Positions 22,212-25,884 of a stretch of DNA of 64,000 nt are shown one piece after another. The notes under the pieces are model-generated. The model worked only from the letters and a program-made list of their open reading frames with translations. It did not search any database and had not been told where the DNA came from. Origin of the DNA: Marinibacterium profundimaris (GTDB lineage: Bacteria; Pseudomonadota; Alphaproteobacteria; Rhodobacterales; Rhodobacteraceae); the NCBI RefSeq assembly GCF_002210095.1, contig NZ_AQQR01000006.1:186001-250000 (forward strand), read 5' to 3'. The number at the start of each line of letters is the position of its first letter. Positions within the stretch are counted from its first letter, which is position 1. The position numbers and the translations under genes are program-made.

Positions 22212-23141
22212 TCAGGAGGCGTTCTGAAGGAAGGGCAGCGGCACCGGCAGGGCCGGCGGTGCAAGCAGGCGGGACCAGCGCGGGGACGGGCGCTGCGGCA
22301 TGGCCCCGCGCAGGCTGTGCAGCGGAAACCGGTCGGGCTGGCGCATCAGCGCGTTGTAGAACCGCAGGATCCCGTGGCGCGTATAGCTCGACCAGTGGCA
22401 GATCCGGCGCTGGGGCGCGGCAAGCGGATGGCCTAGCCTTTCCAGGTGTTCCAGCGTGCGCGGGCAGTCGATCTGCAGGGTGACGGCGTTGGGCGCCTCG
22501 AACCCCTGCCCGATGGACCGGTCGCCGGCACGGGGCGGCGAGATCAGCCGCTCGTAGAGAAAATCGAACGTGTCGTTCTCGCGGCTGACCACGTTGAAGA
22601 AGTCGACCTTGCGGCCGGCCGGCGTGTCGAGCGCGTCCTGCGCGCGGCTTTGGTAGCAGGCGCCGGTCAACGACACGATGCGGTTCACGCTGCCGGAGGG
22701 CAGGTGCGGCAGGGCCTGAAGCGCGACCTCGGTGCCCATGGAATGCGACAGCACGTGCAGGGGCCGGTCCGGCGCGTGGCGGTGCAGCCGCGCGATGGTC
22801 TCGGCCAGGGCCTCTCCGGCGGCGACGGCGCTGGCCTGCGCGGTCCAGAGCGCGCCGCGGGCGTTCCAGCCGAAGGCCACGCCCAGCCCCTCGTCGGCGT
22901 AACCGGCCCCAAAGCCCAGCCGGCGCGGCCAGCTTTGCATGCGGATGTCCGACGTGACCGGGTGCAGCGACAGGACGCGGCGGTGCGGGCAGTGGTCCGG
23001 GTGGCCCGGCAGGTACTTGTAGCCGTGGATCATGACGATGACCGGGCCGCGCCCCTGGGCGGCAGTGCGGAAGCAGGGCAGCGGCTCCCCTTTTCCGGGG
23101 CGCATCCGGGATCCGTCCGCGTTGATCCTGATGATGGGCAT
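22212..23141 (-). CDS. Alpha/beta hydrolase, lipase-like
   Basis: A 309-residue protein with the alpha/beta-hydrolase plan: the oxyanion strand VIVMIHGYKYLPGHPDHC and the nucleophile elbow VLSHSMGTEVALQ (Ser in the SHSMG box). The His of the triad may be the one in the C-terminal RICHWSSYTRHG; the acid is unclear. There is no signal peptide, so it is probably cytoplasmic. The ATG opening MPIIRINADGSR was chosen; an ATG four codons upstream is possible. It resembles DUF900-type or generic serine esterases, and I cannot name a substrate. It is divergent from metZ. Confidence 0.72.
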   Translation of the reverse strand: MPIIRINADGSRMRPGKGEPLPCFRTAAQGRGPVIVMIHGYKYLPGHPDHCPHRRVLSLHPVTSDIRMQSWPRRLGFGAGYADEGLGVAFGWNARGALWTAQASAVAAGEALAETIARLHRHAPDRPLHVLSHSMGTEVALQALPHLPSGSVNRIVSLTGACYQSRAQDALDTPAGRKVDFFNVVSRENDTFDFLYERLISPPRAGDRSIGQGFEAPNAVTLQIDCPRTLEHLERLGHPLAAPQRRICHWSSYTRHGILRFYNALMRQPDRFPLHSLRGAMPQRPSPRWSRLLAPPALPVPLPFLQNAS

Positions 23142-23230
23142 GGCAGGCCTCATACAAGATGTTGTGTCTGGTCTATGACCGATGCGTAAGACGGGGGTAT
23201 GAAACTGCGGTTACAGTACCGTGACGGTGC

Positions 23231-23259
23231 TTGACGGCTTTTCGCCTGAGGCGTAAATG
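23231..23259 (+). promoter_or_regulatory. Probable metZ promoter
   Basis: TTGACG and TAAATG separated by exactly 17 bases. The -35 is near consensus and the -10 is modest. The predicted transcription start, about seven bases later, falls just before the SAM-II aptamer, which supports the assignment. Confidence 0.55.
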
Positions 23260-23273
23260 CAACAGCACGGGAA

Positions 23274-23327
23274 GTGGCGATTTGTTCACCGGATTGCGGG
23301 CCACGTTAAACATGCCGCTAAAGAGGT
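23274..23327 (+). ncRNA. SAM-II riboswitch (SAM_alpha aptamer)
   Basis: The sequence follows the SAM-II consensus closely. Stem P1 is GTGGC paired with GCCAC (23274-23278 with 23300-23304), enclosing GATTTG, an ACCGG segment and ATTGCGG. Then come the conserved ACGTTAAACATG and the pseudoknot 3' strand CCGCTAAAGAGG. SAM-II aptamers are known in front of methionine-synthesis genes of alphaproteobacteria and bind S-adenosylmethionine; here the gene is metZ, 80 bases downstream. High SAM is expected to reduce metZ expression. Confidence 0.93.
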
Positions 23328-23333
23328 CAGACG

Positions 23334-23372
23334 AAGGGGCCCCTTTCGCTTGACCGCGACGGGGGTTTTTTT
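23334..23372 (+). terminator. Candidate attenuator between SAM-II aptamer and metZ
   Basis: A stem CCCC-TT-TCGC / GCGA-C-GGGG with a six-base loop (23340-23364) is followed by a run of seven T residues. The upstream self-complementary AAGGGGCCCCTT (23334-23345) shares the CCCC strand, so the two hairpins exclude each other. This looks like a transcription-attenuation platform, though control of translation start remains possible. Confidence 0.6.
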
Positions 23373-23405
23373 GTGAGCTTTCGACGGAAAGCCGGAAGGA
23401 AAGAC

Positions 23406-24587
23406 ATGAGCGACAGCTGGAAAAGGCGCACCCGTGCGGTGCATGGCGGAACCAAGCGAAGCCAGTTCGGAGAAATGAGCGAGGCGATCTACCTGACGCA
23501 GGGGTTCTCCTACGACAGTGCCGAACAGGCCGAGGCCCGGTTCCTCGAAGCCGGGCACGACGAGTTCATCTATGCGCGCTACGGCAATCCCACGGTCGCC
23601 ATGTTCGAAGAGCGCATCGCGACGCTCGAGGGCACCGAAGACGCCTTTGCGACCGCCAGCGGCATGGCGGCGGTCACCGCCTCGCTGATGTCTATGCTGA
23701 AGGCCGGCGATCACGTGGTGTCGGCCAAGGCGCTGTTCGGATCCTGCCTTTACGTTCTGGAAGAGGTGCTGGGCCGCTACGGGGTCGAGGTCACCTTTGT
23801 CGATGGCACCGACCTGGATCAATGGCGCGCGGCGATGCGCGACGACACCAGGGCGGTGTTCTTCGAATCGGTCGCCAACCCGACGCTGGAGCTGGTCGAC
23901 ATCCGCGGCGTGGCCGAGATCGCCCATGAAAAGGGCGCGCTGGTCATCGTGGACAACGTGTTCTCGACCCCGGTCTTCTCGAAGGCGGTGGAGCTGGGCG
24001 CGGATGTGATCGTCTATTCCGCCACCAAGCATATCGACGGCCAGGGACGGACCCTGGGCGGGGTGATTCTGGGCACCCGCGAATACATCCGCAAGACGGC
24101 GGAGCCGTTCCTGAAGCACACCGGCGCCGCGATGAGCCCGTTCACCGCCTGGGTGATGCTGAAGGGGCTGGAGACGATGGAGCTGCGCGTGCGGGCCCAG
24201 GCCGAGGGCGCGCTGAAGCTGGCGCAGGCGCTGGAAGGGCATCCGCAGCTGGAGAGGGTGATCTTTCCCGGTCTGGCGGCGCATCCGCAGCACGACCTAA
24301 TGCTGTCGCAGATGGAGCAGGGCGGCACCGTGCTGTCCTTCGACGTGAAGGGCGGCCAGGAGGCGGCGTTCAAGGTGCTGAACGCGCTGAAAATCGTCAA
24401 GATTTCCAACAACCTGGGCGATGCCAAGTCGATCGTCACCCATCCCGCGACCACCACCCATCAGCGCCTGCCCGACGAGCAGAAGGCCGAGCTGGGCATC
24501 ACGCGCGGGCTGCTGCGTCTGTCGGTCGGGCTGGAAGATCCCGATGACCTGATCGCCGACTTGAAGGACGCGCTGGACGCGCTTTGA
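23406..24587 (+). CDS. metZ: O-succinylhomoserine sulfhydrylase
   Basis: PLP enzyme of the Cys/Met-metabolism family that makes homocysteine directly from O-succinylhomoserine and sulfide. The 393 residues show the family order: RTRAVHGGTKRSQFGEMSEA, the YARYGNPT substrate/PLP segment, ASGMAAVTASL, VDNVFSTPV, the PLP lysine near residue 208 in YSATKHIDGQGR, and the C-terminal GLLRLSVGLEDPDDLIADL. The MetZ branch is favoured by EAIYLTQGFSYDSAEQAEAR and by the SAM-responsive leader. The ATG is preceded by GGAAGGAA; the frame extends back to a GTG inside the leader, which is not a credible start. Confidence 0.93.
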   Translation: MSDSWKRRTRAVHGGTKRSQFGEMSEAIYLTQGFSYDSAEQAEARFLEAGHDEFIYARYGNPTVAMFEERIATLEGTEDAFATASGMAAVTASLMSMLKAGDHVVSAKALFGSCLYVLEEVLGRYGVEVTFVDGTDLDQWRAAMRDDTRAVFFESVANPTLELVDIRGVAEIAHEKGALVIVDNVFSTPVFSKAVELGADVIVYSATKHIDGQGRTLGGVILGTREYIRKTAEPFLKHTGAAMSPFTAWVMLKGLETMELRVRAQAEGALKLAQALEGHPQLERVIFPGLAAHPQHDLMLSQMEQGGTVLSFDVKGGQEAAFKVLNALKIVKISNNLGDAKSIVTHPATTTHQRLPDEQKAELGITRGLLRLSVGLEDPDDLIADLKDALDAL

Positions 24588-24780
24588 TGCACCCGGGGGC
24601 GGGCCGTCGTGGAGTAGGTGGCCCCCCTCTGCCCCCCTTGCGGGGCGCCTCGGTCACCGGATCACGGTCCCGTGTGGCCGGTTGAGTGATCCACCGCGTC
24701 TTCGGCCGCGTAATCCACAGGAACACATGGAAATTTGCGCCCCGGGCGTTATGTTCCATACCTGACACGGAGGCTTTCGC

Positions 24781-25884
24781 ATGACGATTCACGCACCCAC
24801 CCTGCAGCGCAAACCCGACCAGGACGAGGCGGCCGAGGCGCTGGCCGTCCTGCGCAGCTGGGCGCGGGGGGCCTCTGACGCCGAGATCTCGCAGCTGGAC
24901 CCGGCCATCGCCAAGCTGATTCCCGGCGGCGGCGCGGTGAGCTATCCGTCGCTGTCGCGCCAGTACCCGGACGATTTCGCGGTGGATGCCAATTACAAGG
25001 CCTCGCTGCCCGACCTGCAGAACGGGCCGTCGAGCCTGATCCGCGGGGCGAAGCAGGAGATCCAGCATGTCGGGATCTCGAATTTCCGGCTGCCGATCCG
25101 ATTCCATACTCGCGATAACGGAGATGTGACGCTGGAGACCAGCGTGACCGGCTCTGTCAGCCTGGAGGCGGACAAGAAGGGCATCAACATGTCGCGCATC
25201 ATGCGCAGCTTCTATGCCCATGCCGAAAAGACCTTCAGCTTCGAGGTGATCGAGGCGGCGCTGGACGATTACAAGTCGGACCTGGAGAGCTTTGACGCGC
25301 GGATCATGATGCGGTTCTCGTTCCCGATGAAGGTGGACAGCCTGCGCTCGGGGCTGGCCGGGTACCAGTATTACGATATCGCGCTGGAACTGGTGGAGCG
25401 GGCGGGCACGCGCCGCAAGATCATGCACCTGGATTACGTCTATTCCTCGACCTGCCCCTGTTCGCTGGAATTGTCGGAACACGCGCGATCGATGCGCGGC
25501 CAGCTGGCGACGCCGCATTCGCAGCGTTCGGTGGCGCGGATTTCCGTGGAACTGGAACGGGATGCGGGCTGCCTGTGGTTCGAGGACCTGGTCGAGGCCT
25601 GCCGCCGCGCGGTGCCGACCGAGACGCAGGTGATGGTGAAGCGCGAGGACGAACAGGCCTTCGCCGAGCTGAACGCGGCCAATCCGATCTTTGTCGAGGA
25701 TGCCGCGCGGCTGTTCTGCGAGTCGCTTGAGGCCGACGCAAGGATCGGCGATTTCCGTATCATCGCGAGCCACCAGGAAAGCCTGCACAGCCATGACGCG
25801 GTGTCGGTCCTGACCCGGGGCACGACCTTCGACAGCGAAAGCCTCGATCCGCAGCTCTTTGCCACGCTGCATCACCGGGGGTGA
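24781..25884 (+). CDS. folE2: GTP cyclohydrolase FolE2 (type IB)
   Basis: Converts GTP to 7,8-dihydroneopterin triphosphate, the first step of folate synthesis, using a metal other than obligate zinc. The 367 residues contain the FolE2 signatures VGISNFRLPI, SVSLEADKKGINMSR, and the active-site cysteine block YVYSSTCPCSLELSEHAR, followed by PHSQRSVARISVELE. It starts at an ATG with ggagg seven bases upstream. The fold and length fit the family. It supplies substrate for FolB and FolP, whose genes lie about 13 kb downstream. FolE2 is often under zinc control in other bacteria; no clear Zur box is seen here. Confidence 0.95.
   Translation: MTIHAPTLQRKPDQDEAAEALAVLRSWARGASDAEISQLDPAIAKLIPGGGAVSYPSLSRQYPDDFAVDANYKASLPDLQNGPSSLIRGAKQEIQHVGISNFRLPIRFHTRDNGDVTLETSVTGSVSLEADKKGINMSRIMRSFYAHAEKTFSFEVIEAALDDYKSDLESFDARIMMRFSFPMKVDSLRSGLAGYQYYDIALELVERAGTRRKIMHLDYVYSSTCPCSLELSEHARSMRGQLATPHSQRSVARISVELERDAGCLWFEDLVEACRRAVPTETQVMVKREDEQAFAELNAANPIFVEDAARLFCESLEADARIGDFRIIASHQESLHSHDAVSVLTRGTTFDSESLDPQLFATLHHRG

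Follow-up and report, generated by a model that had tools for sequence, protein, structure and literature searches.

The window analyzed here, a stretch of 64,000 nucleotides taken as a whole, carries the methionine-pathway gene metZ preceded by a leader with a SAM-II aptamer and an intrinsic terminator. The features of the locus are as follows:

23231–23259, forward strand: possible promoter, −35 element TTGACG at 23231–23236 and −10 element TAAATG at 23254–23259 with a 17-nt spacer (sequence)
23264–23342, forward strand: SAM-II aptamer match, RF00521 (covariance model)
23274–23278 with 23300–23304, forward strand: aptamer stem P1 (RF00521 match, relatives)
23288–23290 with 23325–23327, forward strand: pseudoknot P2, ACC/GGU (RF00521 match, relatives)
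23296–23297 with 23317–23318, forward strand: pseudoknot P2, GC/GC (our own reading, outside the pairing count)
23325–23355, forward strand: predicted antiterminator (−15.7 kcal/mol, base-helix covariation)
23340–23372, forward strand: intrinsic terminator, hairpin at 23340–23365 followed by seven T at 23366–23372 (sequence, folding, relatives)
23394–23399, forward strand: probable metZ Shine-Dalgarno sequence GGAAGG, 6 nt 5' of the ATG (sequence)
23406–24587, forward strand: metZ, O-succinylhomoserine sulfhydrylase, 393 aa (TIGR01325, 560.8 bits, cut-off 510.05)

The metZ gene, assigned by TIGR01325, begins with the ATG at 23406. A GTG start at 23373, taken from the list of open reading frames, was rejected because it abuts the T run and lies 5' of the Shine-Dalgarno sequence. 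The closest relative of the gene among the best 80 of 546 metZ loci is 89% identical and belongs to a MAG labelled Rhodobacteraceae. The gene 3' of metZ (24781–25884) encodes the GTP cyclohydrolase FolE2 (NF010200, 292.2 bits, cut-off 215), and the divergent reading frame 5' of the riboswitch (22212–23153, reverse strand) has no NCBIfam match.

The first-pass annotation had described a SAM-II aptamer close to consensus in front of metZ, and the covariance search that it suggested bears this out. RF00521 (SAM_alpha, SAM-II) matches 23264–23342 on the forward strand over its full length (model positions 1–79 of 79), with 55.8 bits against a gathering score of 36 and an E value of 7.7e-10. This is the sole above-threshold Rfam match in the window, and the only SAM_alpha copy detected in the 6.15-Mb genome. 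Both the P1 stem and the P2 pseudoknot that mark a SAM-II aptamer are present: P1 and the ACC/GGU part of P2 are paired in 98.5% of cells across 84 relatives, a value reached by 0 of 500 shuffles. Judged by its sequence, the element is an S-adenosylmethionine sensor of the common SAM-II kind, ordinary for its bacterial group.

Transcription of the leader would start near 23266, downstream of a plausible promoter pair. The promoter-like pair of the first-pass annotation stands in part: TTGACG at 23231 is near consensus and the spacing is 17 nt, but TAAATG at 23254 is weak, with three of six positions agreeing by eye, and a generic scan of 22800–24800 returned no promoter. An upstream TTGAC is conserved among relatives, mostly 5–8 nt closer to the aptamer than in the window. 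Within 80 nt upstream in 212 relatives, 160 of 204 TTGAC occurrences lie at −43 to −40 from GATTTG, and only 8 of 204 at −48, where the window has its own. Promoter elements of a near-consensus type, a few nucleotides 5' of P1, are described in the accessible text of PMC1273637.

The comparisons below draw on two samples. Within the family, the aptamer was found in 160 of 198 genomes. Family loci comprise 150 aptamer matches among the matches listed (31 as loci, and 119 more) together with 80 metZ loci from named genomes, the best 80 of 546. The anchor was located in 227 of the 230 loci, the misses being L170, L222 (with 14 nt upstream of metZ) and L230, and 212 distinct leaders were left from among the matches listed and the best 80 of 546 metZ loci. 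The leaders of the window's type, here type A, were chosen by a motif including G[AGT]CC, so that the invariance of those bases is partly built into the set of 84; one row of their alignment (L150) is one base out of register. A further set of 82 leaders was chosen by TTTCGC alone. The search of the class gave a match in 141 of 289 genomes, and the class sample was taken from 90 matches of at least 55 bits among the matches listed, all from genomes outside the family; six without the core pattern and an incomplete one were left out, leaving 83 leaders.

The generic scan of 22800–24800 returned no terminator, and we therefore wrote our own terminator finder with controls, which accepts a T-tailed hairpin with dG ≤ −8 within 150 nt 3' of the aptamer. 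Such hairpins occur in 190 of the 212 distinct leaders of the family, compared with 4/212 coding, 6/212 upstream, 14/212 reverse-complement and 8/212 dinucleotide-shuffled controls. The excess over the 4–14 hits of the four controls rejects a chance origin of the hairpin and makes termination the best reading of these leaders. Of 83 leaders from other families in the class, 58 have the hairpin (coding control 4/83, reverse-complement control 13/83). The finder is strict: four of the 22 family misses (L056, L058, L068 and L137) show T-tailed hairpins by eye, and the same holds for several of the 25 misses in the class sample, such as L258, L262 and L291. Other family leaders (L003, L016, L041, L045, L051, L059, L132 and L175) keep the SAM-II core and have no T-tailed hairpin by finder or eye; loss of the terminator or a different mode of control may account for this.

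The terminator hairpin of the window lies between the aptamer and metZ and contains an internal loop. Its lowest-energy register pairs CCCU.UCGC with GCGA.GGGG, at −11.3 kcal/mol for 23340–23364. The stem had originally been given as CCCC-TCGC/GCGA-GGGG followed by seven T; the hairpin and the T run are there, but the best register is one step away from CCCC/GGGG. In the CCCC/GGGG register, two pairs fail in 49 and 48 of the 84 relatives, and covariation of the helix across these relatives does not rise beyond shuffles (126/500 as high). Another, small hairpin, GCUUUCGACGGAAAGC (23377–23392, −6.5 kcal/mol), follows the T run and precedes the ribosome site of metZ. At its position a hairpin with dG ≤ −4 is present in 67 of the 72 usable type A leaders (of 84), and mononucleotide shuffles reach −4 on average in 32 of the 72.

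The predicted antiterminator combines a base helix, GGUCAG (23325–23330) with UUGACC (23350–23355), and an upper helix, CGAAGGG (23332–23338) with CCUUUCG (23342–23348). Its first strand opens with GGU, the 3' strand of P2, and the switch would thereby be tied to SAM; its second strand consists of the 5' arm and loop of the terminator. Owing to these two overlaps, the antiterminator excludes the SAM-bound aptamer and the terminator alike. The leader thus has the arrangement of a terminating platform, with a terminator between P2 and the gene and an antiterminator predicted to exclude both P2 and the terminator.

The base helix is supported by comparison of relatives. It is paired in 98.0% of cells in the alignment of 84 type A leaders, against 73.5% for its best slid version, and its covariation score is attained by 0 of 500 shuffles. 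Eleven cells, a count that tallies sequences and not events, are doubly changed with pairing kept (shuffled mean 2.2, 0/500 as high), and the double changes fall on two pairs, a number that is not above shuffles (226/500). At the third pair U-A is replaced by C-G; at the sixth, U-A, C-G or A-U takes the place of G-U. The GGCC/GGCC carriers L194, L197 and L228 group as a single clade on the metZ tree. At least four contiguous pairs from the GG of P2 are possible in 75 of the 82 TTTCGC leaders (seven misses), compared with 509 of 4100 random coding 7-mers. The upper helix is a weakly supported prediction: in 15 of 74 leaders the native sequence ranks within the lowest 5% when the linker is shuffled, with the window at 11/100, and the helix is not in the consensus fold of 59 leaders, which were taken from the 82 TTTCGC leaders by omitting 7 with TTTCGC elsewhere and 16 near-copies.

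Folding with and without an aptamer constraint, as the first-pass annotation had proposed, gives the predicted response. For the leader that begins at CUAAA and stops where the hairpin ends, the mean terminator-pair probability is 0.07 with the 3' strand of P2 free and 0.97 with it blocked. The RNA 23266–23364 favors the antiterminator when free (0.84, terminator 0.05) and loses it when both P2 strands are blocked (0.03, terminator 0.48); once blocked, this RNA has the terminator as its lowest-energy fold, in a register that the pair list captures only in part. The free-state values for antiterminator and terminator change from 0.68 and 0.14 with the RNA end at 23372 to 0.52 and 0.22 at 23406, and to 0.25 and 0.36 at 23440. 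Since the preference fades with longer RNA, the decision must come early, with the polymerase near the T run, as it does in attenuators generally. Blocking P2 lifts the terminator probability by more than 0.5 in 51 of 83 same-type leaders; in the other leaders of the family the equilibrium model does not yield a switch (1/107 respond). Even so, in both groups the GG of P2 pairs with the terminator arm or loop more than in the mean of the leader's own shuffles, in 70/83 same-type leaders (p = 3e-12, Wilcoxon) and in 90/107 others (p = 1.5e-15).

Together, sequence, comparison and folding models make it likely that the SAM-II riboswitch switches metZ off via transcription termination. At low SAM, GGUCAG would be free to pair with UUGACC of the would-be terminator loop; the resulting antiterminator would capture the 5' arm of the terminator, and RNA polymerase would continue into metZ. 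At high SAM, P2 would occupy GGU, the antiterminator would be deprived of its base, and the terminator would form, releasing a leader RNA of ~105 nt. That this copy may terminate transcription had been put forward at the outset, and it is the best-supported reading, given the hairpin in 190/212 leaders and the covarying helix that overlaps P2.

The most serious challenge to it concerns the role of SAM at the terminator. The terminator might be constitutive and chiefly yield leader RNA, with SAM acting on translation or RNA stability, comparable to S. meliloti metA, where the terminator after SAM-II, for which no SAM response is predicted, strongly restricts expression (PMC9373788, in the portion available). 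The 106 of 107 other-type family leaders in which a P2 block gives no terminator rise of more than 0.5 agree with a constitutive terminator; however, the antiterminator helix that overlaps P2 covaries, and the leader in the window is predicted to switch in folding. We regard a constitutive terminator in the window as unlikely. The mutually exclusive hairpins of the first-pass annotation had set the palindrome AAGGGGCCCCTT against the terminator, and both hairpins do require CCCC at 23340–23343. The AAGGGGCCCCTT hairpin (23333–23347) exists, but alone it is worth −3.9 kcal/mol and caps the −15.7 kcal/mol helix at 23325–23355, which overlaps P2 and is the predicted alternative to the terminator. 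The palindrome was rejected as the entire antiterminator on this basis. Moreover, AAGGGGCCCCTT has no base in common with the aptamer or P2, so direct control of it by SAM would not be possible, and its competing alone with the terminator is highly improbable.

Hiding of a ribosome site by SAM is scarcely credible for this leader, even though GAGG (23323–23326) sits within the 3' strand of P2 and a 2024 review presents direct occlusion as the SAM-II mechanism (PMC10907184, as far as its accessible text goes). None of ATG, GTG and TTG occurs within 23 nt 3' of GAGG, and a separate GGAAGG for metZ stands 6 nt 5' of the ATG, ~67 nt downstream of P2. Occlusion in P2 was rejected because the nearby start codon that characterizes direct occlusion is missing.

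To compare the wiring of different leaders, the best complement of the P2 tail (at least four pairs) was placed relative to each terminator. Of 83 leaders of the window's type, 78 have the match within the loop and 4 in the 3' arm; 1 has none. The other 107 terminator-bearing family leaders are mixed: 5' arm 29, 3' arm 24, loop 20, linker 14 and none 20. Outside the family the 5' arm dominates, with 42 of 55 leaders, followed by the linker (9), the 3' arm (2) and the loop (2), three more leaders being without GG. Arm capture is thus the common layout elsewhere in the class, for example GGUCGG versus CCUGACC. Type A leaders group together on the metZ tree, their label requiring 5 changes against 26.4 when shuffled (0/500 as low), with loci without a found aptamer scored as 'other' and the bootstrap not fully settled. 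The layout of the switching helix seems to be lineage-specific, and the mechanism a known one. We propose tentatively, as something short of probable, that the SAM-II platform of a large roseobacter/Paracoccaceae lineage is distinct in that the aptamer tail takes the terminator loop and a linker helix holds the arm. If true, the stem would need no match to the aptamer once the loop is captured, and sensor and terminator could evolve separately. Loop capture is possibly the only new part of the system; titles and the beginnings of abstracts in the open literature gave no description of it, subscription papers and supplements being mostly beyond reach.

SAM-II is often portrayed as a hider of ribosome sites, yet a terminator follows it in 190/212 and 58/83 leaders, in agreement with statements in papers of 2005 and 2007. 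The premise of the first-pass annotation that T-tailed terminators are less usual after SAM-II is contradicted both by these counts and by PMC1273637 and PMC2258182, whose accessible passages call such terminators usual and propose the same mechanism for SAM-II. The premise perhaps goes back, at a guess, to a view like that of PMC10907184, which in its available part gives SAM-II as a direct-occlusion riboswitch. For the leader in the window, the antiterminator model specifies its bases and can be tested, and the comparison suggests that one small pseudoknot can be wired to a terminator in two ways, by capture of the arm or of the loop. If confirmed, these would aid in predicting or designing expression platforms, leaving the known role of SAM-II unchanged.

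Among characterized relatives, S. meliloti metA resembles the window in having a SAM-II aptamer followed by a terminator, but its control is placed on a Shine-Dalgarno sequence in P2 by the accessible text of PMC9373788; in the window, unlike in metA, no start codon lies close after P2. The S. meliloti metZ copy is nearer. It is predicted to terminate upon SAM binding, and its sRNA RZ increases at high SAM (same source, same portion). It shares with the window the aptamer class, the gene and the predicted termination on SAM; it belongs to another family, and the comparison covers these points. For Rhizobiales and Rhodobacterales, the part of PMC4239095 at hand gives metY as the core target of SAM_alpha. 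The terminator-type SAM-II of PMC1273637 and PMC2258182 has, in the passages available, the same aptamer, pathway, terminator between P2 and gene, and predicted OFF logic as the window; those passages do not give a base-level antiterminator for the window's bacterial group, and nothing differs in kind. On present evidence from sequence comparison, the best-supported view is that the window holds an ordinary, widely conserved terminating-type SAM-II riboswitch before metZ.
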